Shown: positions 2,845 to 42,498 of the stretch, in pieces
Layout: each line of letters starts with the position of its first letter
How positions within the stretch are numbered: position 1 is the first letter of the stretch
The notes under the pieces: model-generated
The model's database searches: none
Seen by the model: the letters and a program-made list of their open reading frames with translations, nothing else
What the model was told of the DNA's origin: nothing
Made by a program: the position numbers and the translations under genes
Origin: Deltaproteobacteria bacterium
GTDB lineage: Bacteria; Desulfobacterota; Binatia; UBA9968
Length of the DNA stretch: 62,852 nt
Direction of reading: 5' to 3'
NCBI GenBank assembly: GCA_009692615.1
Contig: SHYW01000013.1
Coordinates: forward strand, 1-62,852

Positions 2845-2912
2845 TATTCGCTTTTGCCTCCACTGCCTGTTGCCTTTGTCTATCAGCTTCAAATAGAATC
2901 GGCGCCAATCTT

Positions 2913-3500
2913 ATGGCCGAGACGTTAACCTTTATTCCAAGCGAACGGCTGGTACGTTCGATCCTGCTCATCCGGGGAGAAAAAGTCATGCTGGATTACG
3001 ATCTGGCGGACCTTTACGAAGTCGAGGTGAAACAAATAAAAAGGCAGGTGAGGAGAAATATCGACCGATTCCCAAAAGACTTCATGTTCGAACTATCAAA
3101 ACAAGAATATGATTCTTTAAGGCGCCAATTTGGCACCATAAAACGTGGCGAGCATTCTAAATACCTGCCTTATGCGTTTACCGAGCAAGGCGTCGCCATG
3201 CTCTCCACGGTGTTAAGAAGCAGGAGAGCGGTGCGGGTCAACATCGAGATCATGCGGGCTTTTGTTCGGCTCCGAGAGATAGTGGCCACGCATAAAGACC
3301 TAGCAAGAAAACTTGAGGCCCTAGAGGGAAAATACGACGCTCAATTCAAGATGGTTTTTGACGCGATTCGCCAATTGATGACCCCACCGGAGCCGAAGAA
3401 ACGAAAGATCGGATTTCTCGTGAAGGAACGAGCTGCAAAATACGGAAGGTGCGACATTAATCTGAGAAGTCAAAATTGCCAACCGACGACGAAGCCATAA
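2913..3500 (+). CDS. ORF6N domain-containing protein
   Basis: A 195-residue cytoplasmic protein with an N-terminal ORF6N domain (about residues 8-95), marked by [29 protein letters not shown] and [15 protein letters not shown]6N is a DNA-binding-related domain common in phage antirepressors and scattered chromosomal genes of unknown role. A helical segment follows, then the family's usual ending [16 protein letters not shown]. Here about 16 further residues follow, where family members normally stop, so the original stop may have been lost. Base composition is more AT-rich than the neighbours, consistent with transfer. No partner gene is adjacent. Confidence 0.8.
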
Positions 3501-3566
3501 TAGAAAACTGGATTGAGAATAAAGCATGAAAACCGAACAGGCCTCGACGCTGAAAATGTAAACCCC

Positions 3567-4409
3567 ATGAGAATCATCGACCTGCACTGCTATCCCAACA
3601 CCGAACCCTGGATCAAATCCCAGGGGCCCTACGTCGAAGCGCTGGCGAAATATTGGAACCGTGCCTGGACATGGAAGAGCGAATCCGAGGTCATCGAAGA
3701 ATTTAAAAAAGTTCAAGTTGAAGCGCTGCTGGTCGCCTTCGACATCGAATCGGTCACCGGCGCGCCGCCCTGCACCAATGAATATGTCGCGCAGATGCGC
3801 GACCGCCATCCGGGCGTGATTCGCCAAGCTTGGGGCGCCGTCGATCCGCTGAAGGGAGAAGCTGCTATCGCAGAAGCGAAAAAGGCTATCCATGAGTTGA
3901 AGCTACTCGGCTTTCACTTCCATCCGATCATGGGTCATTTCTCCGTCGACGACCGCAAGCTCTACCCGCTGTGGGAGACCATCAACGAACTGAAAGTTCC
4001 CGTCATGATCGACGTCGGCACCACCGGCATGGGCGCGGGCATGCCCGGCGGCTTGGGCGCGGTGATTCGCCATGCGCACCCGTCCGCCATCGATCAGCTC
4101 GCCGCCGACTTTCCCAATTTGAATATCGTCGCCGCCCATCCCGGCTGGCCGTGGACCGAAGAAATGATCGCCGTGGCGTTGCACAAGGGCAATGTTTCAT
4201 GGGAGCTATCGGGCTGGGCGCCGCAGTATTTTTCCGACGCGCTCAAGCGCGACATCAGAAGCCGGCTCAAGGACAAAATCATGTTCGGCAGCGATTACCC
4301 GAGCCTCCCTTACGATCGCCTTTTCAAAGAGTGGCACGAACTCGGTTACTCGGACGACCTATTGGAAAAAATCTTTCACGGCAACGCCGAGCGAATCCTC
4401 GGCTTGTAG
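3567..4409 (+). CDS. Amidohydrolase family protein (TIM barrel, ACMSD superfamily)
   Basis: A 280-residue metal-dependent hydrolase/decarboxylase-like protein. It begins MRIIDLHCYPN, where the classical HxH metal pair reads H-C-Y, so the second histidine is absent. Other expected ligand regions are present: FHFHPIMGH, AAHPGWPW and FGSDYP near the C-terminus. The superfamily includes ACMSD and gamma-resorcylate decarboxylase, acting on aromatic acids or ring-cleavage products. The start at 3567 is chosen because homology begins there; a frame from 3513 adds 18 unrelated residues. A second amidohydrolase and a racemase-fold protein follow on the same strand, suggesting one catabolic operon. Confidence 0.8.
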   Translation: MRIIDLHCYPNTEPWIKSQGPYVEALAKYWNRAWTWKSESEVIEEFKKVQVEALLVAFDIESVTGAPPCTNEYVAQMRDRHPGVIRQAWGAVDPLKGEAAIAEAKKAIHELKLLGFHFHPIMGHFSVDDRKLYPLWETINELKVPVMIDVGTTGMGAGMPGGLGAVIRHAHPSAIDQLAADFPNLNIVAAHPGWPWTEEMIAVALHKGNVSWELSGWAPQYFSDALKRDIRSRLKDKIMFGSDYPSLPYDRLFKEWHELGYSDDLLEKIFHGNAERILGL

Positions 4410-4489
4410 TCTCGCGAGGCCGCAACGAATTGCAGAAAAGAATGGCCGCGGAGAACGCATAGGGCGCAAAAAAGATTTCGGAACTGTAG

Positions 4490-4542
4490 GGGCGGGTTTC
4501 AAACCCGCCCGTCCCCGAAACCTTCGTGCCTTCGTGGTGAGA
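4490..4542. repeat. Palindromic repeat: GGGCGGGTTTCAAACCCGCCC plus half of a CCTTCGTG repeat
   Basis: A 10-bp perfect palindrome (4490-4510) is followed by a half-unit CCTTCGTGCCTTCGTGGTGA whose partner arm is missing. Full versions of the second unit occur elsewhere in this window. Confidence 0.6.
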
Positions 4543-4572
4543 AAATCCGACGGACTGAAGGAGACAACTGTA

Positions 4573-5556
4573 ATGAACATCGACTTCCATGCCCACTTCT
4601 ATCCTGAAGACTATTTAAAGAAACTCGAAGCCTCCCAGGGCGATGTCCGTATCGAGACCGACGCCAAAGGACAACGGTGGATTTTGAGCATGGGCGCCAA
4701 AGCCGGACCGATCACGCCGGACTTTTTCGACATCGACACCCGCGTCGAGCGGATTACCGAGAACCGCGTCGACATGCAAGTTCTCTCCTCGCCCCATCCC
4801 GGCGTCGACCGCTTTTCGCCGGAGGAAAGCGCCGACATGAGCCGGGCGATCAACGACGGCATCGCCAAAGCCATGCGCAAGTCGCCGAAACATTTTCAAG
4901 GCGTCGCCATGCTGCCGCTGATCGACACCAAGCTGGCGTTAAAAGAACTCGACCGCGCCGTGTTGGATCTCGGCATGAAGGGATTGTGCATGCTCTCCAA
5001 CGTCGCCGGCAAAATGCTCGACGGCGATTTTCTCCTGCCGATTTACGCGCGCGCCCAAGAACTCGGCGTGCCGATCTTTATCCACCCGACCACACCGCTG
5101 GGCGCGCAAGTGATGCAGGAGTGGCGCTTGGCGATCATTCTCGGTTTCGAATTCGACGTCGTGCTGTCGGCGACGCGGCTGGCTTATTCCGGAATACTCG
5201 AGCGCTTTCCCGAATTGAATTTCGTCATCTCGCACCTCGGCGCAGGGATTCCTTTTCTCGCCGGCAGAATCGACCGCGGCTACTTCGATCCCACCTGCGG
5301 CATCAAAACCAAAAAGCCGACCAGCGAATATCTCCGCGAGCTTTACTGCGACACGGTGTCGTTTTATCAACCGGCCTTGGCCATGGCCTACGAATTTTAC
5401 GGCGCCAGTCGAATGGTGCTGGGCAGCGATTTTCCGTTGATCATCGGCGACCTGCCCGCCGCCGTGCCGAGCATCGAAGCGATGAACATCCCCATACGCG
5501 AGAAAGAGAAAATTCTCGGGGGAAATGTCATTGAACTACTGAAACTGAAAATCTAA
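4573..5556 (+). CDS. Amidohydrolase, aminocarboxymuconate-semialdehyde decarboxylase-like
   Basis: A 327-residue amidohydrolase-fold protein of the ACMSD type. It starts MNIDFHAHFYPEDY with an intact HxH metal pair (H6, H8); further ligands are suggested by FIHPTTPLG, ISHLGAGIPF and LGSDFP. Known relatives remove a carboxylate from aromatic or muconate-type substrates in the cytoplasm using zinc or manganese. GAAGGAGA lies about 10 bases upstream of the ATG; the longer open frame from 4192 overlaps the previous gene and is spurious. It lies between another amidohydrolase and an arylmalonate-decarboxylase-like gene. Confidence 0.86.
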   Translation: MNIDFHAHFYPEDYLKKLEASQGDVRIETDAKGQRWILSMGAKAGPITPDFFDIDTRVERITENRVDMQVLSSPHPGVDRFSPEESADMSRAINDGIAKAMRKSPKHFQGVAMLPLIDTKLALKELDRAVLDLGMKGLCMLSNVAGKMLDGDFLLPIYARAQELGVPIFIHPTTPLGAQVMQEWRLAIILGFEFDVVLSATRLAYSGILERFPELNFVISHLGAGIPFLAGRIDRGYFDPTCGIKTKKPTSEYLRELYCDTVSFYQPALAMAYEFYGASRMVLGSDFPLIIGDLPAAVPSIEAMNIPIREKEKILGGNVIELLKLKI

Positions 5557-5571
5557 ATCCGCGAACTGTAG

Positions 5572-5590
5572 GGGCGACCGGCGGTCGCCC
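5572..5590. repeat. Hairpin GGGCGACC-GGC-GGTCGCCC
   Basis: A perfect 8-bp stem with a 3-base loop, preceded by GTAG, in the short gap after the amidohydrolase. It belongs to the GTAGGGGC...GCCC hairpin family seen also at 9389, 34265 and 58296. No T-tract follows. Confidence 0.5.
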
Positions 5591-5627
5591 GTATTATTAA
5601 CAACGAACAAACCACACGAGGTGACCT

Positions 5628-6395
5628 ATGGCCGACTACATCAAAAAACTCATGCCCCGTTTCCGCTACGGCGCGATCCATCCGCGCGCCCACGAAGACC
5701 CCATGCGCGGCGCCTGCTACCAGCTCTACCACCTCGTACCTTTGGACTTCATGGAGGTTGCCACCGGACTTGGATTGGAAAATTACACCAAGGACGCGGT
5801 CGAGAAGGCGATCAAGAATTTTTGGCCCTGCGTCGAGCGCCTCGCCAAAGAAAAAGTCGACCTGATTATTTTCAGCGGCGCGCCGATCTCGGCTGCTTTG
5901 ACTCGGCCCCGAGTGCTCGAATTGCTGCGCCAGGTGAAAGAGAAAACCGGCATTAACGCCGACGCGCCGCTGGAAGCGGCCATCGCCGCGATGAAACATT
6001 TAGGTCTGAAAAAGCTCAGCATCGGCAGCCGCTGGGCCGACCCAGTCAACGACGCTATGATTTGCTATTTTGCCGAAGCCGAGATCGAAGTCGTGCACAC
6101 CACCAAGCGCAATCAATGGGCAGCCGAAGCCTTCGGCATGACCCTGGAAGAAGGTTTGCAGGCCGCGGTTGACGTTGGCCGTGAAGCCGTAAGCCAAGCG
6201 CCGCAAGCCGAAGCGATTTTCGTTGCCGGCGGCGCGGCGATGTCTCTGCACGCCATTCCGACGATCGAAGAGGAATTCGCCAAGCCTACCTTCACCAACA
6301 TGAGCGCCGAAGTATGGCATGATTTAGTACGCCCCGGCATTATTCCGCCGATACAAGGCTGGGGTTGTTTGCTGGCGAACCAAAAGCGGCCGTAA
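5628..6395 (+). CDS. Asp/Glu racemase superfamily protein (arylmalonate decarboxylase/maleate isomerase-like)
   Basis: A 255-residue protein of the Asp/Glu racemase fold with two similar alpha/beta lobes. DLIIFSGAPIS and AIFVAGGAAMSLHAIP lie where family members carry catalytic thiols or oxyanion loops, but neither segment has a cysteine; the second resembles the arylmalonate decarboxylase loop with the catalytic Cys replaced by Ala (comparison from memory). The C-terminal half has a conserved look (TNMSAEVWHDL, GWGCLLA). The start has GAGGTGACCT just upstream. It follows two amidohydrolases and precedes an SBP, so a role on imported organic acids is plausible, but the reaction is unknown. 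Confidence 0.72.
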   Translation: MADYIKKLMPRFRYGAIHPRAHEDPMRGACYQLYHLVPLDFMEVATGLGLENYTKDAVEKAIKNFWPCVERLAKEKVDLIIFSGAPISAALTRPRVLELLRQVKEKTGINADAPLEAAIAAMKHLGLKKLSIGSRWADPVNDAMICYFAEAEIEVVHTTKRNQWAAEAFGMTLEEGLQAAVDVGREAVSQAPQAEAIFVAGGAAMSLHAIPTIEEEFAKPTFTNMSAEVWHDLVRPGIIPPIQGWGCLLANQKRP

Positions 6396-9656: not shown

Positions 9657-10628
9657 TTATTTGCTCGCCTCCAGATCTTTCCACACCTGCCTTGCCAGGG
9701 AAAAATCACGCACGTCATCCAGCGTCCGTTTCTTGTCGTTGCCCAGCCGATCTATAAAACTTTCGATCTCGGCGTCGGTCATGGTGCCGTCGCGCTGAAT
9801 CGATTTAAGTTCGACATCATAGGAGCGCGCGGCGATCTCCGGGGTTTGCTTGACCCATTGCAACAGGACTTTAATCGTTTCGGCGCGGTTCTCGTCGATA
9901 AAACGGTTGGCGCGCAAAATCGCCCGCACGCCGCGCCGGACGAAATTTGGATTCTCCTTGATCAATCGGTCCGAGGTAATCATCCCCGAGGCCGGCATGC
10001 CGATCTCCGGCGGCCCGGCGAGAACTTTGCCACCGGCCTTTTGCGCCATCAAGTCGTGGGGCGGCGACAGCGTCGTCACTTCCACCGCGCCGGTGATGAC
10101 CGACTGCAAGCGCACCGAAGTATCGCCGAGTACCACCGGTTGCATCAGCGCCGGATTCAGCCCTTTGGAACGAAGCAACTCCTCCGCGACTAGATGATCA
10201 GAACCACGAAGACTCGATACGCCAAGCTTCTTGCCCTTGAGATCTTGCACGTCCTTTATGCTCGGATGCGCGATCAAATAATAAACACCCTTTTTGAAAG
10301 CGACAAGCACGATCTTCATCGAAAATCCGGAAAGTATTCCGCGCACCGTGCTGACAAAGGTGCCGGTGAAAGATACATCCCCATTCATCAACGCCATCAC
10401 ACCCAAGCGCGGATTGGCCTGAATGATCTCCACGTCCATGCCTTCGTCGCGAAAGAACCCTTTACTCACCGCGACGTAGTACGGCACACTGGTGTTACTG
10501 CGACTCGAAAACGAAATGCGCACTTTCTGCATCTGCGCCTGAGCGATCCCATTGATAGCGGCAATGGCAACGACAACTGCAAGCAACATCGAAAAGCAGC
10601 TTCGAATTCCGATCCGGCGATTTTCCAT
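9657..10628 (-). CDS. ABC transporter SBP, NMT1/THI5-like (second of a tandem pair)
   Basis: A 323-residue exported binding protein. The signal peptide begins MENRRIGIRSCFSMLLAVVV and ends before QMQKVRISF. SSRSNTSVPYYVAVSKGFF, GDVSFTGTFVSTVRG and VQDLKGKKLGVSSL match the adjacent gene closely, so the two are tandem duplicates. GGAGAACTGAG precedes the ATG at 10628; the longer frame to 10682 overlaps the upstream gene's coding region. The 26-base gap to the upstream copy suggests one transcript. The ligand is unknown; FVSTxRG-type SBPs are common in genomes with expanded NMT1 sets. Confidence 0.86.
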   Translation of the reverse strand: MENRRIGIRSCFSMLLAVVVAIAAINGIAQAQMQKVRISFSSRSNTSVPYYVAVSKGFFRDEGMDVEIIQANPRLGVMALMNGDVSFTGTFVSTVRGILSGFSMKIVLVAFKKGVYYLIAHPSIKDVQDLKGKKLGVSSLRGSDHLVAEELLRSKGLNPALMQPVVLGDTSVRLQSVITGAVEVTTLSPPHDLMAQKAGGKVLAGPPEIGMPASGMITSDRLIKENPNFVRRGVRAILRANRFIDENRAETIKVLLQWVKQTPEIAARSYDVELKSIQRDGTMTDAEIESFIDRLGNDKKRTLDDVRDFSLARQVWKDLEASK

Positions 10629-10654
10629 TCTCAGTTCTCCCTTCTGCAATGTTC

Positions 10655-11602
10655 CTACTTTCCCGCTTCCAATTCCTTCCACGCCGCCCGCGCGAAGGAA
10701 AAATCGCGCACTTCATCGAGGGGCCGTTTCTTGTCGGCGAGCCGTTCCATTTGCCCTTCGATCTCGGCGTCGGTCATAGTGCCGTCTTTGGCGAGAGTCT
10801 TGAGCTCGATATCGTAGGAGCGCGCCGCCAGTTCCAATTTCTGCGGCACGAACTGGGACATGATGCGGATCGTTTCTTCGCGATTGGCTTCGAGAAAACG
10901 ATTGGCGCGCAATAAAGCGCGAATCGCTTTGCGCAGCACTTGGGGATTCTCCTTGATCACCTTGTCGGCGGCGAAAAGTCCGGACGACGGCACGCCGATC
11001 TCGGGCGGACCGGAGACTGCTTTCAGTCCCAAATTTTGCAACTGCACATCGTAGGGCGGCGGCACCGACACCGCTTGAACGATGCCGGTAACTACCGCTT
11101 GAAATCGCAGCGACGGATCGCCCACGGCAATGGCTTGGACAGAGTTGGGATCGATCCCCTTCATGCGCAGCAATTCGCGGCCGATGATGTGGTCGCCGCC
11201 ATTGATCGCCGTCACGCCAAGCTTCTTACCCTTCAGTTCTTGCACGTCTTTGATCACCTCGGGCCGCACCATCAAATAGTACAGACCTTTCTTCAGCAAG
11301 ATGAAAACCGTCTTCATCGGCAATCCCTGCACCACACCGCGAAAGGTGCTGACAAACGAAGTCGTGAACGTGACATCGCCGTTGAGCACCGCCATCGCGC
11401 CCAGCCGCGGATTGATCTGAATAAATTCCACATCCAACCCTTCATCGCGAAACATCCCGCGCGCCTGGGCGACATAGTAACTCGCGTTGGTATTACTGCG
11501 GCTCGACAATGAAATACGAATCTTCTGCGTCTGCGCCTGCGACGCCGGCACGAACATCAACATCGACAACGCCAATCCCACAAGTCCGATTTTTTTTCTC
11601 AT
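10655..11602 (-). CDS. ABC transporter SBP, NMT1/THI5-like (first of a tandem pair)
   Basis: A 315-residue exported binding protein with signal peptide MRKKIGLVGLALSMLMFVPA ending at SQA. The mature chain is colinear with the downstream paralogue: SSRSNTNASYYVAQARGMF, GDVTFTTSFVSTFRG, VQELKGKKLGVTAI and the C-terminal DGTMTDAEIEGQMERLADKKRP. GGAGAAGCGC precedes the ATG at 11602. Differences are mainly in the ligand-facing segments, so the pair may bind related but different compounds (inference). No permease or ATPase adjoins. Confidence 0.86.
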   Translation of the reverse strand: MRKKIGLVGLALSMLMFVPASQAQTQKIRISLSSRSNTNASYYVAQARGMFRDEGLDVEFIQINPRLGAMAVLNGDVTFTTSFVSTFRGVVQGLPMKTVFILLKKGLYYLMVRPEVIKDVQELKGKKLGVTAINGGDHIIGRELLRMKGIDPNSVQAIAVGDPSLRFQAVVTGIVQAVSVPPPYDVQLQNLGLKAVSGPPEIGVPSSGLFAADKVIKENPQVLRKAIRALLRANRFLEANREETIRIMSQFVPQKLELAARSYDIELKTLAKDGTMTDAEIEGQMERLADKKRPLDEVRDFSFARAAWKELEAGK

Positions 11603-11836
11603 GCGCTTCTCCGTGAAATTGACCAACCGAGGGAGGTTTCTAAACCCGCCCCCATATTTCCAATTCTTTTTTTGCGCCCTTTGCGCTTTTTGCGGCCATT
11701 CATCCGAATCCGAACTCTACGATCTCCGCTTTCACAGTCAACTATAAATAAGCCAGCCGACTCCAACAGGTCAAGATAAGTTTGAGTAATTTTTGCTTTA
11801 CAAGCCGCCGAGACTTGACCTAGAGTCGGCTCAATC

Positions 11837-12862
11837 ATGATGCAGTTATCCATTCGCGCCACTCTTCTGCTCTTGTTAATCGCAACCACGGCTTCGGCCA
11901 ATCACTACCTGCCCAAGCCCGGCGACCGGCCGGTGAATCTTCGCGTCGGCACCTCGGCGGTCACCGGCGGCTTCGTCCACCTCTACACCGGTCTCGACAA
12001 CGGCATTTTCGAAAAGTACGGCTTGAAGATCGAGCACGTCTACATCCGCGGCCAATCGCCGGCCCTCGCCGCGTTGGCCGGCGACGAGCTGCAATTCAAT
12101 TACGGCGCGGCCGATGGCAGTCTGCCTGGAATGGCGGCCGGCGTCGACGCCAAACTGATCGCCTCGCCGCTGGTCAAACTTCCTTACGTCATGATCGCGC
12201 GCAAGGAGATCCGCCGTCCCGAAGATTTGAAAGGAAAATCTATCGGCGTCACTCGCCCCGGCGATTTGAGCGCGCGGCTGTCGCGGCAAGTGGTAAGAAA
12301 ATTTGGCCTTACCACCGATGAAGTGACCATCCGCCCCATCGGCGGCAGCCAATCGGAACGTTATCAAGCCATGCTCGGCAACGTCGTCCAAGCGATCCTG
12401 GTCACGCCGCCATTGGATATTCGCGCCAAACTCGACGGCTTCAACATCATCTATCGCTTGATCGACTTGGAGATTCCGTTCATCTACAGCTCGCTGATCA
12501 CCAACTATAAAATGCTCCGCGAGCGCCAAGAAACCGTCCAACGCATGGTCGCAGCTCTGGCCGAGACGGTTCACTTCGTCGAAAAAAATCCCGAGCGCGC
12601 CAAAGCCGCCATCGCCAAAGCCATGCGCGTGAAGGATGATGAAGCATTGCAATCCTCCTACAACGTCTATGCCAAAGAGATCGTCGATCGTACCATGATC
12701 GTGCCGGGAAAATCGGTCATCGAAGCGGTGGACATCGCCCGCGAAACTGGCACCATCGTCAGAAAGAAAGCCGAAGAGCTGTTCGACAACAGTTACGTCA
12801 ACAATCTCGAAAAGAGCGGCTTCTTAAAAGAGCTTTGGGGCAACGAAAACTACCGGCGGTGA
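11837..12862 (+). CDS. ABC transporter SBP, NMT1/TauA-like (first of a tandem pair)
   Basis: A 341-residue exported binding protein. The signal peptide MMQLSIRATLLLLLIATTASA is followed by NHYLPKPGDRPVNLRVG. NMT1 features are FVHLYTGLDNGIFEKYGLK, RRPEDLKGKSIGVTRPGDLS and a C-terminal VNNLEKSGFLKELWG. The next gene starts two bases after its stop and is a close paralogue, so the two are translationally coupled duplicates. It is a different subfamily from the minus-strand pair at 9657-11602. Confidence 0.87.
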   Translation: MMQLSIRATLLLLLIATTASANHYLPKPGDRPVNLRVGTSAVTGGFVHLYTGLDNGIFEKYGLKIEHVYIRGQSPALAALAGDELQFNYGAADGSLPGMAAGVDAKLIASPLVKLPYVMIARKEIRRPEDLKGKSIGVTRPGDLSARLSRQVVRKFGLTTDEVTIRPIGGSQSERYQAMLGNVVQAILVTPPLDIRAKLDGFNIIYRLIDLEIPFIYSSLITNYKMLRERQETVQRMVAALAETVHFVEKNPERAKAAIAKAMRVKDDEALQSSYNVYAKEIVDRTMIVPGKSVIEAVDIARETGTIVRKKAEELFDNSYVNNLEKSGFLKELWGNENYRR

Positions 12863-12864
12863 AT

Positions 12865-13884
12865 ATGAAAATAAAAATATTGCCGTTGCTGCTGGTTATC
12901 TTTAGCGCCAACGCCTTCGCCAACCCCTATCTGCCCAAACCCGGCGAGCGCACTCTTGCCATGCGAGTTTCCACCTGCGCCGTCTCCGGCGGCTTCATCC
13001 ATCTCTACACCGCCCTCGACAACGGCTTGTTCGAAAAATACGGCGTCAAGTTTGAAAATATATTTATCCGCGGCAGCGGTCCCAATCTCTCGGCGCTCGC
13101 CAATGATGACGTGCAATTTTCCTACTGCGCCTCCGACGCGTTGATTCCCGGTCTAGCCGCGGGCATCGACGCAAAAATCGTCGCCTCGCCGTTGGTAAAG
13201 CTGCCTTACGTGCTGGTCACGCGCAAAGAAATCCGCCGCCCCGAAGATCTCAGAGGCAAAGCTCTCGGCATTGCCAGGGCGGGCGACTTGAGCGACCGGC
13301 TGTCGCGCGCGGTGGTGAAAAAATTGGGCTTGGCGGCGGACGAAGTCATCATGCGCCCCATCGGCGGTAGCCAAGGCGAGCGTTATCAAGCGATGGCGGC
13401 GGGCATCGTTCACGGCGTCATCATCACGCCGCCCTTAGATGTCCGCGCCAAGAACGAAGGCTACAACGTGCTCTACCGCCTGATCGATTTGAATCTGCCG
13501 TTCATCTACAGCTCGCTCCATACCAATTATAAGATGCTCCGCGAACGGCCCGACATCGTCCAGCGCGTGGTCGCCGCTCTCGCCGAGATCGTCTACTTCG
13601 TCGAAAAAAATCCCGACAAAGCCAAAGCATCGGTCGCCAAAGCGATGCGCACCAACGACCAAGCCGCGCTCCAATCCGCCTACGACATGTACGCCAGAGA
13701 AATCCTCGATCGAACATTGTTGGTACCGAGCAAAGCCGTCGCTGAAGCCGTCGACATCGCCCGCGAAGGCGGCACGACAGTCAGAAGAAAAGCCGAAGAG
13801 ATTTACGACAACGGCTTTGTGAATAATCTGGAGAAGAGCGGTTTCTTGAAAGAGATTTGGGGCAGTGAAAATTATCGGCGGTAA
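12865..13884 (+). CDS. ABC transporter SBP, NMT1/TauA-like (second of a tandem pair)
   Basis: A 339-residue exported binding protein, paralogue of the preceding gene. The signal peptide MKIKILPLLLVIFSANAFA precedes NPYLPKPGERTLAMRVS. The body repeats IHLYTALDNGLFEKYGVK, RRPEDLRGKALGIARAGDLS and the ending VNNLEKSGFLKEIWGSENYRR. Cys residues in STCAVSGG and SYCASD are absent from the first copy and could form a disulfide. The start two bases after the previous stop indicates coupling; an upstream start at 12835 would overlap the first gene. Confidence 0.87.
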   Translation: MKIKILPLLLVIFSANAFANPYLPKPGERTLAMRVSTCAVSGGFIHLYTALDNGLFEKYGVKFENIFIRGSGPNLSALANDDVQFSYCASDALIPGLAAGIDAKIVASPLVKLPYVLVTRKEIRRPEDLRGKALGIARAGDLSDRLSRAVVKKLGLAADEVIMRPIGGSQGERYQAMAAGIVHGVIITPPLDVRAKNEGYNVLYRLIDLNLPFIYSSLHTNYKMLRERPDIVQRVVAALAEIVYFVEKNPDKAKASVAKAMRTNDQAALQSAYDMYAREILDRTLLVPSKAVAEAVDIAREGGTTVRRKAEEIYDNGFVNNLEKSGFLKEIWGSENYRR

Positions 13885-13924: not shown

Positions 13925-14890
13925 TCACCTCCCCTGCACCTTGCGCAACAAACTCATATCTTCCAAATCATCCGGCGTAAACGTCTTCGTGATCTTCAGA
14001 GTCTCGCGATAAATCTCGATCTCCTTTTCCACCGCCGCGCGCGGCTTCGTGCCGTCTTTGCTGTAGCCGAGCATTTGCGCGGTGAAGGCCTTTTCAGCCA
14101 GCGCCAGATCGAGCTTGTGATAACTGGAAACATACTGAACCACTTCGCTGCGATTGGCCGGATTGAGAATATAGGTCATGGTCCGGTGCAGTGCCGCGAT
14201 CATGCCGTAGACTTTCTGCGGGCTCTTTTTCATCGTGTCGATGGAACTGACCAAGCCGATGAAACTCAACGGCGCGTACGTCCTCGCCTCCGCCAACTTC
14301 ACATAGCCTTTGGCTTCCAGCTCTTCGACATACGGCGGCGCCAGCAAAGTCGCGGCAATTCTTTTGCTTGTTAGCGACTTGATCGCGTTGTCGGTGACCA
14401 GCATCGCCAACAGCGTCACCTTGCCCGCCTCGATCCCATGGGCGCGCAGAATCACGTTCGCTGACATACCCACGGCGTCGGTCAATGCGGTGACACCGAC
14501 CGCTTTACCGATTAAATCTTGAATCGACTTAATCTCCGGCTGCGCCAGCAGCACATGAACCGGATCCTGCTGAACATAGAATATCCGCCTGATCGGCAAG
14601 CCGCGCATGATCGCCGACGTGGCCGCCCCCGTGGTCGTGGAAAAATCCAGCTCGCCGCCGACGATCGCCGCGATCGCCGTCGGTGGCGACATCATCACCA
14701 ACTGGGGCTCGATCTGCTCGGCCGCGAAGAAGCCCTTATCCTTGCCGAAGTAGTACGGCATGATCGACAAACTCTTCGACGGCACATGGATCGTCGCCTT
14801 CATGGGCGCGGAAGCGGCGTGGGCCGATTGCAGCGCCAGCATCAAACCGAGAATGACCACCGCATTGTGAATTACTGTCCGTGCGTACAT
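13925..14890 (-). CDS. ABC transporter SBP, NMT1/THI5-like
   Basis: A 321-residue exported binding protein. The signal peptide starts MYARTVIHNAVVILGLMLAL and is cleaved near AHAAS. PYYFGKDKGFFAAEQIEPQL, GGELDFSTTTGAATSA and IQDLIGKAVGVTAL are typical of the NMT1 group; the C-terminal region includes DDLEDMSLLRK. AGGTGAGACG precedes the ATG at 14890; a longer frame to 15049 would translate a palindromic intergenic repeat. It converges on the plus-strand pair. No transport partner is adjacent. Confidence 0.86.
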   Translation of the reverse strand: MYARTVIHNAVVILGLMLALQSAHAASAPMKATIHVPSKSLSIMPYYFGKDKGFFAAEQIEPQLVMMSPPTAIAAIVGGELDFSTTTGAATSAIMRGLPIRRIFYVQQDPVHVLLAQPEIKSIQDLIGKAVGVTALTDAVGMSANVILRAHGIEAGKVTLLAMLVTDNAIKSLTSKRIAATLLAPPYVEELEAKGYVKLAEARTYAPLSFIGLVSSIDTMKKSPQKVYGMIAALHRTMTYILNPANRSEVVQYVSSYHKLDLALAEKAFTAQMLGYSKDGTKPRAAVEKEIEIYRETLKITKTFTPDDLEDMSLLRKVQGR

Positions 14891-14930
14891 CGTCTCACCT
14901 AACCTCTCGCGCACAATGTGAAGATTTGAC

Positions 14931-15003
14931 TCACCACGAAGATCACGAAGGACACGAAGGGTTCGGATGAATACAAATCCGACCTTCGTGTCCTTCGTGG
15001 TGA
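14931..15003. repeat. Palindromic repeat, CACCACGAAGATCACGAAGG type
   Basis: The left arm TCACCACGAAGATCACGAAG is answered by CCTTCGTGTCCTTCGTGGTGA, with a nested TTCGGAT...ATCCGA core. It lies in the gap upstream of the SBP at 14890. Confidence 0.7.
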
Positions 15004-15045
15004 ACACTTCCGTTCGTCTTTGCTTGCGGCCAATACCAGCTCGCG

Positions 15046-15636
15046 TCACTCATGGAACCTGCTTGTCGCCGCCGCGGCGACTTGCTGCACCGCCGGCACC
15101 GGACAAAAGCCATGGGCTTCGACGGCGAAGACCGGGTTGAACTTACTGCGAAAATTTTCCAGCGCGATGACCGCCGCCAGCTCGACTAGCTCTTCTTCGC
15201 TAAACTGTTTCTTAAGCCGGTTGAAAAATCGCTCGGTCACGCGCTTGTTGGTGTAAGTCATGCGTTCGCACAGTTCCAACGCCAATTTTTCGCGTAATGA
15301 AAACAGCGCGCTCTTCTTGTAAGCGCCCAGCGCCGCCGCCACTTTCTCCGCCGACGCGCCCTGTTGCATCCCACTGGATGCGTTGATGTCCAGTCAATAG
15401 GGGCAACCGTTGATGCTCGCCGCTTTCATGCACAGTAGATGGCGCAGCTCGGCGCCGATCAAGCCCGAAGCGACAATGCCGGCTTGCAGCGCCTGCACGC
15501 CTTTTTGAATCGTCGGCCGCAGACCGTAGACTTTCGCCGTGTTTAAAATCGTACCGTATTGTTTCTCCTGCGACGCGAATACCTCTTGAACTTCTTTGGG
15601 CGCGGTTTCTTTCGACGCACCTTTGATTCTCAACAT
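15046..15636 (-). CDS. AhpD/carboxymuconolactone decarboxylase-like selenoprotein (in-frame TGA = Sec81)
   Basis: Read through a TGA at 15394-15396, this is a 196-residue protein of the AhpD-like CMD family. The TGA falls where relatives have the second cysteine of the redox motif: INGC-P-Y-[TGA]-LDIN, normally CxxCxDIN. Homology continues in the same frame after it: REKLALELCERMTY, EEELVELAAVIALENFRSKFN and EAHGFCPVP. Family members reduce peroxides through the CxxC pair. A hairpin with bacterial SECIS geometry begins 12 bases after the TGA. GGAGGTCGCAT precedes the start. The gene follows an amidohydrolase by 18 bases and is likely co-transcribed. A simple nonsense mutation is the alternative, but the exact position and the hairpin favour selenocysteine. 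Confidence 0.8.
15361..15396 (-). promoter_or_regulatory. Candidate bacterial SECIS element downstream of the Sec TGA
   Basis: On the minus strand, 12 bases after the TGA, GCATCC and GGATGC form a perfect 6-bp stem with a 4-base loop AGTG (15366-15381). The loop begins 18 bases after the TGA and has G at its second position, both within known limits for bacterial SECIS. An outer CTG/CAG pairing could extend the structure. A competing hairpin ACTGGA/TCCAGT overlaps. SelB binding is inferred from structure only. Confidence 0.65.
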
Positions 15637-15654
15637 ATGCGACCTCCGATTGAA

Positions 15655-16608
15655 CTATATTTTCAGCAGCTTCGCCGCGGTGCCGCCGAGCATGGCTTCT
15701 TTCAATTTTGCATCCAGCGCCAGGCTACGAATCAGCGCAATATACTCGCCCACACCATCGATGTTCTTACCTTGTTTAGGATCGCTGGCGTTGAAATTTT
15801 GCGGATAGTCCGTGGCGAAAACCAGCCGCTCCGGTTTGATGACTTCCAACGCGCAGCGCAGCGCGATAGCGCTGCCCTCGAAGCCGGCCATGTCGAAGTA
15901 GAGCCGTTCGAAATAATCGTCGAACGACTTGGGCAACTTGAAACGATACGACGAGCGCGAGATGCGCTCTTTGTAACCCGCCAAACCGCCGCCGAAGTGG
16001 GCGAAGACAAAATTTAAATCGGCAAAGCGTTCGACCACGCCGCCGGCGATCAGCCGCGTCACTGCCACGCCGAGATCGAATTCTCGCGTAAGAATCACTG
16101 GCAGCATATAATCCTTCATCAGGTCGTAGCCCTTGGGCCCCAATGCCGGATGAACGAAAATAGTTGCACCCAATTTCGCCGCCAGTGAATAGAACGGCTG
16201 AAACTCCTTGGCATCCAACGACAGGCCGTTCACCTGCGACGAGATCGTCACGCCTTTCAAGTTCAATTCAGTGATCGCCCGCTCAAACTCGGCGAGCGCC
16301 GCATCGCCGCCCAACGGCGGCACATGCGCCAAGCCGACGAAGCGGCCGGGAAAATCTGTCTGCGCCCGCGCCGTGCAATCGTTGAGCAGCTGGCAGTTTT
16401 CCAGCGTCGTATCCCAGCCGAGAATGCAGCTCTGCACCGCGACATCGATACCGGCGCGGTCCATGTCGGCGATCTGCGCCGACAAATCGAAAAGCTGCGA
16501 ATGAATCGAAGCATCGCCGGTCCGCACTGCATCCTTGCGATTGGGATCCATGCCCATGCGCCGGCCGAGTTCGGCGGGAATGTAGTGATGTTCAAAGTCT
16601 ATAACCAC
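15655..16608 (-). CDS. Amidohydrolase family protein (ACMSD/gamma-resorcylate decarboxylase-like)
   Basis: A 317-residue TIM-barrel protein. The N-terminal VVIDFEHHYIPAELG carries the E-x-H arrangement of the decarboxylase branch; later ligand regions are IFVHPALGP, FVFAHFGGG and FATDYPQNF. Relatives decarboxylate hydroxybenzoates or muconate semialdehydes. The start is a GTG at 16608 with GGGAG upstream; the frame to 16659 adds residues without homology. The selenoprotein gene begins 18 bases after its stop, so they probably form an operon. Whether the selenoprotein handles a product of this enzyme is unknown. Confidence 0.82.
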   Translation of the reverse strand: MVIDFEHHYIPAELGRRMGMDPNRKDAVRTGDASIHSQLFDLSAQIADMDRAGIDVAVQSCILGWDTTLENCQLLNDCTARAQTDFPGRFVGLAHVPPLGGDAALAEFERAITELNLKGVTISSQVNGLSLDAKEFQPFYSLAAKLGATIFVHPALGPKGYDLMKDYMLPVILTREFDLGVAVTRLIAGGVVERFADLNFVFAHFGGGLAGYKERISRSSYRFKLPKSFDDYFERLYFDMAGFEGSAIALRCALEVIKPERLVFATDYPQNFNASDPKQGKNIDGVGEYIALIRSLALDAKLKEAMLGGTAAKLLKI

Positions 16609-16687
16609 AGAGGATCTCCCGCAAGCAGTGAATTGTTCAAAGAGACCAAGGTGTACCACAACTTGGCATCCTTCGTCACATGTTCCG

Positions 16688-18747: not shown

Positions 18748-18782
18748 GCCTGTTTCTTCCAGCTCGATAAGAAAATGCGATC

Positions 18783-18846
18783 TCACCACGAAGGACACGA
18801 AGGTTTCGGATAATTAATATTCCGAACTTCGTGCCCTTCGTGGTGA
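18783..18846. repeat. Palindromic repeat, CACCACGAAGGACACGAAGG type
   Basis: TCACCACGAAGGACACGAAG at the left is complementary to CTTCGTGCCCTTCGTGGTGA at the right, with a TTCGGATAATTAATATTCCGAA core that is itself a palindrome. It lies upstream of the asparaginase gene. Confidence 0.72.
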
Positions 18847-18866
18847 ATAATTCTTCGCTGCTTCAC

Positions 18867-20592: not shown

Positions 20593-20673
20593 CTCACCAC
20601 GAAGATCACGAAGGACACGAAGGGTTCGGATAATTTAAACTCCGAACTTTGTGCTCTTCGTGTCCTTCGTGGG
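20593..20673. repeat. Palindromic repeat, CACCACGAAGATCACGAAGG type
   Basis: CTCACCACGAAGATCACGAA and TTCGTGTCCTTCGTGGGGA form the arms; inside, GGTTCGGATAATTTAAACTCCGAAC is a second palindrome. It lies between the EamA transporter and an SBP gene. Confidence 0.7.
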
Positions 20674-20734
20674 GAAAGTTCTCTTTCTTATTTGGTTGCG
20701 GCTGTGCCGCGCTAGGCCCTTTGCGGCTAATTTC

Positions 20735-40868: not shown

Positions 40869-40951
40869 TTCACCACGGAGGACACGGAGAGCACGAAGTT
40901 CGGAAAATCTATTTTCTAGACCTCTGTGTACTCCGTGACCTCCGTGGTGAA
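40869..40951. repeat. Palindromic repeat, CACCACGGAGGACACGGAG variant
   Basis: TTCACCACGGAGGACACGGA is complementary to CTCCGTGACCTCCGTGGTGAA, a GGAG variant of the CACCACGAAGG family. It separates the SBP from the FAD-dependent enzyme. Confidence 0.7.
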
Positions 40952-42430: not shown

Positions 42431-42498
42431 TTTCACCACGAAGGACACGAAGGTTTCGGATAAATTATTTTGCAAACTTCGTGCTCTTCGTGGTGAAT
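42431..42498. repeat. Palindromic repeat, CACCACGAAGGACACGAAGG type
   Basis: TTCACCACGAAGGACACGAA pairs with TTCGTGCTCTTCGTGGTGAA; the centre has TTTCGGATAAATTATTTTGCAAA. It lies between the convergent FAD enzyme and lipoprotein genes. Confidence 0.72.

Follow-up and report, generated by a model that had tools for sequence, protein, structure and literature searches.

A probable CxxU selenoprotein of the AhpD-like superfamily in a Binatia genome, with a conserved in-frame UGA followed by a co-varying hairpin

The window analysed here, a stretch of 62,852 nucleotides from contig SHYW01000013.1 of a Deltaproteobacteria bacterium assembly (GCA_009692615.1; class Binatia), carries on its minus strand an AhpD/CMD-fold gene (15046..15636) that contains a predicted selenocysteine codon. 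The gene opens with an ATG at 15636-15634, 6 bases downstream of a Shine-Dalgarno-like GGAGG (15643..15647, minus strand, read by eye from the sequence), and its codon 81, which lies inside INGCPY-TGA-LDIN, is a TGA (15394..15396) at the second position of a CxxC motif. Beyond this codon the frame stays open for 115 codons (82-196) up to a TGA at 15048-15046, giving a product of 196 residues including the putative Sec81. The original prediction had described both the single in-frame TGA at the second Cys position and the unbroken coding that follows it, and both descriptions hold, with the addition of the strand, which had not been given. Read with table 11, the gene falls apart into two ORFs, of 80 aa and 107 aa. 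Judging from the aligned relatives, the terminal TGA is very probably a true stop, since codon 197 is a stop in nine of the ten sequences compared (five TGA, two TAG and two TAA; L026 reads on). Cys78 (codon at 15403..15405, minus strand), which occupies the first position of the CPYU motif, is shared by every one of the 17 sequences in alignment A1 and is probably the resolving residue. A hairpin (15366..15381, minus strand) begins 12 nt after the TGA and consists of GCATCC (15381-15376), the loop AGTG (15375-15372) and GGATGC (15371-15366), so that the perfect 6-bp stem and the UGA-to-loop distance of 18 nt are as originally predicted.

The gene is flanked on the same strand by an upstream Amidohydro_2 (PF04909) gene (15655..16659), which ends 18 bases before the ATG, and by a downstream gene for an NMT1/THI5-like substrate-binding protein (13925..15049 as the longest ORF, with an inferred start at the ATG at 14890). 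This flanking order is kept in three of the 16 named loci (L051, L052 and L066) and the other 13 have different neighbours; the neighbourhood suggests a catabolic setting, in near relatives only. Within 9657-13884 and 13925-15049 of the window, Pfam confirmed three NMT1/THI5-like substrate-binding proteins, and two further similar-looking ORFs lie at 9657-11626. The window also contains a dispersed, REP- or MITE-like inverted repeat built on CCTTCGTGTCCTTCGTGGTGAA, the arms of which are 21 nt long and 31 nt apart at 14931-15003. It occurs at 14930-15004, 18782-18847, 20593-20676, 40869-40890 and 42432-42497, and the genome holds 87 copies of CCTTCGTGTCCTTCGTGGTGAA with at most one mismatch, compared with 0 for the reversed control.

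Assignment to the AhpD/CMD family, as proposed in the original prediction, is borne out by the match to Pfam CMD (PF02627; 40.3 bits, cut-off 23) and by the predicted fold. The AlphaFold2 model (mean pLDDT 95.7) has an all-helical CMD fold, its best Foldseek matches in the PDB are Bmp8 (6ohi/6ohj), 2prr, 6k40, 2pfx and 2ijc, and all 34 PDB chains found at E 0.001 or better are AhpD-like or peroxidase-related by title or family. The same family emerges from a profile search, with 14 PDB sequences at E 1e-5. All eight of the NCBIfam models matched stay below their cut-offs.

Homologues were compared across 117 genomes, the window's own included, 98 of which gave some protein match at E 0.001. 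The alignment revealed that the TGA is not a private mutation. It is present at codon 81 in all 21 close copies (67-99% identity, from 20 genomes with the window's included, two of the copies being broken up in their assemblies, G003 and G024), and neither TAA nor TAG ever stands there. Nineteen of the 25 sampled genomes of the window's family have a close copy, as does one genome of another family of the same order, and of the comparable records that carry a name, most are 'Deltaproteobacteria' MAGs and one is 'Candidatus Binatia'. Four copies from Dehalococcoidia/Chloroflexi MAGs, at 51-59% identity, likewise all have TGA. No Cys form of the close subfamily was found among the copies readable at codon 81; L098 (genome G014; 57% identity over residues 1-75) meets a contig end and stops short of this codon, and L087 gave no readable codon 81. 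The nearest Cys form, L045 (49% identity over the matched part), comes from a genome in which selB and selA were not found, and among 21 remote loci the 20 that are readable at codon 81 all encode Cys. The codons downstream of the TGA are, by codon comparison, under purifying selection. Downstream dN/dS was 0.07-0.17 in the six of nine comparisons in which dS was computable, synonymous sites being near or at saturation and dS incomputable in the other three, and amino-acid change after the TGA was no greater than before it in eight of nine comparisons with relatives. In the closest pair (with L022), pN was 0.072 after the TGA versus 0.028 before it, with a dN/dS of 0.11.

The host genome (5.05 Mb in 186 contigs, 98.7% complete) contains all four components sought, tRNA-Sec, selA, selB and selD, each over its cut-off. 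One tRNA-Sec scores above the Rfam cut-off (74.9 bits, with seven weaker matches below it) and the same tRNA is called as SeC by ARAGORN. The three genes stand adjacent, in a row, on contig C70: selD (1609-2535, 372 bits), selB (2873-4756, 410.3 bits) and selA (4831-6162, 616.7 bits), all over their curated cut-offs, and the selA and selB matches have no internal stop. Many control genomes give weak matches to these models, so only matches over the cut-offs were counted; by this measure, 14 control genomes yielded tRNA-Sec in five, selA in one, selB in two and selD in two. The SelD encoded beside selB and selA (L018) has one in-frame TGA of its own, in the motif AAG-U-AAK. It looks like a selenoprotein itself and is a second sign of a Sec system in use. 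Formate dehydrogenase was considered as a further selenoprotein and rejected, as none of its 10 matches was over the cut-off and none had an internal stop.

The folding energy of the hairpin is ordinary (-9.6 kcal/mol, z -1.0, with 32 of 200 shuffles as stable), and this energy alone proves nothing; conservation decides the case for a SECIS element. When the 20 codons that follow the TGA were recoded synonymously 20,000 times, 1.0% of the trials produced a comparable hairpin (a Watson-Crick stem of at least 6 bp with a G at loop position 1 or 2, at any place within the tried range) and 0.11% produced the exact hairpin. The bSECIS rules given in the legend to Fig. 2 of PMC13188914 ask for a loop of 3-9 nt, a stem of 4-16 bp and a spacing of 16-37 nt, and further for a G among the first two loop nucleotides and an MFE of at most -7.5. 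In the bacterial SECIS check that had been proposed for this locus, the element passes when 40 nt (loop 4, stem 6, AGUG, 18 nt, -9.6 kcal/mol) or 50 nt are folded and fails at 45 nt, where another fold wins. With folds of 40, 45 and 50 nt, respectively, the rules are passed by 52, 48 and 52 of 71 distinct TGA homologues, by 7, 11 and 10 of 40 Cys homologues and by 142, 234 and 300 of the window's 1842 TGA triplets. Eleven of the 19 TGA homologues that fail at 40 nt belong to the close subfamily, nearly all of them with a C/C mismatch at the closing pair. Scanned against Rfam with gathering scores, the window gave 0 matches.

Alignment of the close copies reveals that the hairpin holds its place while its stem drifts with compensating substitutions. 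Among 24 close sequences (25 pieces are distinct over 60 nt, but two of them are identical over 45 nt and count once), 91.7% of stem cells are paired, versus at most 52.1% in slid registers. The covariation score lies above every slid register and above all 500 shuffles, which leave the relatedness of the sequences in place; the number of cells in which both sides have changed is likewise higher than in any shuffle, and two other measures of the five are not, being reached by 302 of 500 shuffles. Twelve of the 24 have a C/C mismatch at the closing pair, the stems of L026, L040, L062 and L065 use G-U pairs that a Watson-Crick-only scan missed, and full stem exchanges are seen in GCATCG-GGTG-CGATGC (L036) and GCGTCG-GGTG-CGACGC (L063). 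Nineteen more distant TGA copies, hand-picked for a common hairpin register with other TGA homologues left out, have different stems, for example TCTGCC-GTN-GGCAGA or CGCCGCC-GTG-GGCGGCG, and their loops share one starting nucleotide, 19 after the UGA. In this set 95.6% of cells are paired, versus at most 66.7% in slid registers, and covariation is again above all 500 shuffles and every slid register, with two of the five measures not above them (259 and 186 of 500).

We compared the form of the gene with the presence of selB in the 64 genomes with a clear match (best match at E <=2.2e-11; selB counted at E 1e-60). The best CMD-fold match has TGA in 51 of these, a set found by likeness to the Sec protein and hence no census, and selB is present in 46 of the 51 TGA-form genomes versus four of the 13 Cys-form genomes (Fisher p 3.7e-5, uncorrected for kinship, with many of the 13 Cys forms being distant paralogues). 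Three of the five TGA-form genomes without selB have selA over the cut-off (G023, G025 and G112), and neither gene was found in the two MAGs that make up the rest (G014 and G067), perhaps due to incomplete assembly. A tree of 110 homologues, built with column 81 removed, includes 72 TGA forms, four of which are from Dehalococcoidia/Chloroflexi; L117 and L148, which have neither Cys nor TGA at the codon, were left out, and in the L048 row one segment had been merged wrongly. The close TGA rows, 25 in all, group together (support 89 from a short search, below the tool's mark of 95), the Cys form L045 stands next outside this group, and the tree, with the same short search and limited support, needs at least six changes between TGA and Cys forms. 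Further CMD-fold genes in which TGA takes the second Cys place of CxxC have other motifs (CLFU, CHYU, CRTU, CQLU and CALU) and lie at L128, L111, L112, L118, L142 and comparable loci within the window's class, some genomes having several. From these genes, the class looks rich in CMD selenoproteins.

Taken together, the presence of tRNA-Sec, selA, selB and selD, the TGA shared by all 21 close copies and the co-varying hairpin support the reading that the gene encodes a selenoprotein in which UGA codon 81 is decoded as selenocysteine, to which we assign a probability of roughly 0.93 and which agrees with the Sec insertion originally predicted. Two other readings of the codon appear very improbable. 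Were the TGA a genuine stop, with the gene either interrupted or yielding a functional N-terminal fragment of 80 residues, the two ORFs obtained with table 11 would have a ready explanation, but purifying selection on the downstream codons, the use of TGA and never TAA or TAG in every close copy and the covariation of the hairpin argue against it. For decoding of UGA as an ordinary amino acid in this genome, by a code change or leaky read-through, no support was found, and it is just as hard to credit, given that three of the 11 window ORFs checked end in TGA, that selA and selB are free of internal stops and that the genome has complete Sec machinery and the TGA falls on the catalytic codon. 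Under the selenoprotein reading, SelB carrying Sec-tRNA would bind the hairpin just 3' of UGA codon 81, as the conserved anatomy and the machinery suggest, and the ribosome would then place selenocysteine there rather than stopping. The product would be an all-helical AhpD-like protein with Cys78-Pro-Tyr-Sec81 as its redox centre. By analogy with AhpD, Sec81 would most likely be the attacking selenolate, oxidised by the substrate (probably a peroxide or another oxidised small molecule), after which Cys78 would resolve the oxidised Sec81 as a selenenylsulfide that a thiol donor would reduce.

What the selenoprotein does is less firmly indicated. A peroxidase-type function, carried over from AhpD, seems somewhat favoured; peroxide reduction or adaptor work would be our first choice and other thiol-redox chemistry its main rival. 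A selenoprotein that is no peroxidase, with its CxxU centre serving in reductive dehalogenation (as in Bmp8) or as an oxidoreductase adaptor in a catabolic process to which the adjacent amidohydrolase and substrate-binding protein would contribute, is a less probable alternative that nevertheless deserves weight. The best Foldseek match in the PDB is Bmp8, titled a debrominase (E 1e-6, TM 0.75), the relay His of AhpD is replaced by Asn, and Amidohydro_2 and NMT1 genes flank the gene in the window and in the three named loci that keep this order. However, the top rank of Bmp8 says little because the peroxidase-related 2prr, 6k40 and 2pfx match almost equally well, the neighbourhood is not kept at 13 of the 16 loci, and a paper on Bmp8 was not found in the open-licence literature. 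The narrower proposal that the subfamily is a selenium-dependent reductive dehalogenase or a similar non-peroxidase catabolic enzyme, combining a Bmp8-like fold with deiodinase-like chemistry and with Sec making the proton relay needless, strikes us as distinctly unlikely. The pKa of Sec is low, and this may explain how an Asn can stand in place of the relay His of AhpD. The idea that Sec generally takes over from the AhpD relay was considered and rejected. Asn85 is found in 37 of 71 TGA versus one of 40 Cys homologues, but the Asn85 rows cluster on the tree, and both the Glu and the His of the relay are kept in nine of the 71 TGA rows versus four of the 40 Cys rows, so that no general rule of Sec for relay emerges.

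As AhpD-like selenoproteins with a CxxU motif were already known from the ocean metagenomes, the window's protein is, on sequence comparison, a new branch of a known kind rather than a new kind. With its ORF split and its scores under every one of the eight NCBIfam cut-offs, a predicted Sec enzyme that occurs in 19 of the 25 genomes sampled from one bacterial family is easily overlooked. As CMD-fold genes with TGA are common there, the lineage is a good place to study the interchange of Sec and Cys and also the drift of SECIS elements at a fixed position. In the open-licence literature, no report of selenoproteins in Binatota was found, a search for the subfamily as CMD selenoproteins of Deltaproteobacteria yielded reviews only, and the NCBIfam model name and related terms gave nothing relevant among the matches listed. 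A phylum-wide search that used the alignment of the close copies, at E 1e-45, matched one of 395 genomes, the window's own. On viral contigs, 11 stretches matched a pattern and none was a relative, and 50 plasmid records matched, all with less than 60% identity, one of them being H1 of Cupriavidus.

The original prediction's statement that AhpD-like selenoproteins are known from metagenomes is correct: CxxU proteins of this kind are described in a 2008 study of ocean metagenomes (PMC2398784) and also appear in lists given in recent reviews (PMC9312934, PMC13188914). With these AhpD-like CxxU selenoproteins (COG2128/YciW, TIGR01926; PF02627) the window's protein shares the CMD/AhpD family and the predicted Sec at the second CxxC position, but it forms a separate sequence branch that scores 44.5 bits on the peroxidase-related enzyme model TIGR01926, below the cut-off of 81.8. 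The closest curated model, NF053654 (GroundWater_YciW, YciW-related (seleno)protein), aligns over residues 1-173 with 155.6 bits, half of its cut-off of 310. The model seems to describe a sister branch, as it gives 294 bits to L041, a TGA-form relative (40%). Among proteins of known structure, the debrominase Bmp8 (6ohi and 6ohj, named according to the PDB titles) is the best structural match at 23% identity, and nothing in its PDB listing marks it as a selenoprotein. The structure of PA0269 of P. aeruginosa (2ijc) matches the whole model at E 1.4e-5, whereas AhpD of M. tuberculosis (1gu9) gives a poor match, with a best E of about 1 and a TM of no more than 0.46 relative to the length of the model. 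This may be explained by the position of the shared helix pair, which lies at different chain ends in the two proteins according to the structural comparison in PMC3141380. In the five-residue relay of AhpD proper, Glu-Cys-His/Tyr-Cys-His, the window's protein has His66 for the Glu, Asn85 for the His and the predicted Sec for the Cys. His66 stands for Glu36 of PA0269 and Glu118 of AhpD, a Glu36-to-His change that the same comparison notes in 2GMY, and Asn85, present in all 17 sequences of alignment A1, stands for His55 and His137, the former given there as invariant among the proteins compared (PMC3141380). By these residues the window's protein is placed in the AhpD-like superfamily and outside AhpD proper, and because the relay residues differ and M. 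tuberculosis AhpD matches weakly, an AhpD-type peroxidase activity is not assured. Common to the window's protein, PA0269 and M. tuberculosis AhpD is the CxxC helix-hairpin core, in which Cys48, Tyr50 and Cys51 of PA0269 stand where C78, Y80 and U81 do, with Sec predicted to take the place of the second Cys.
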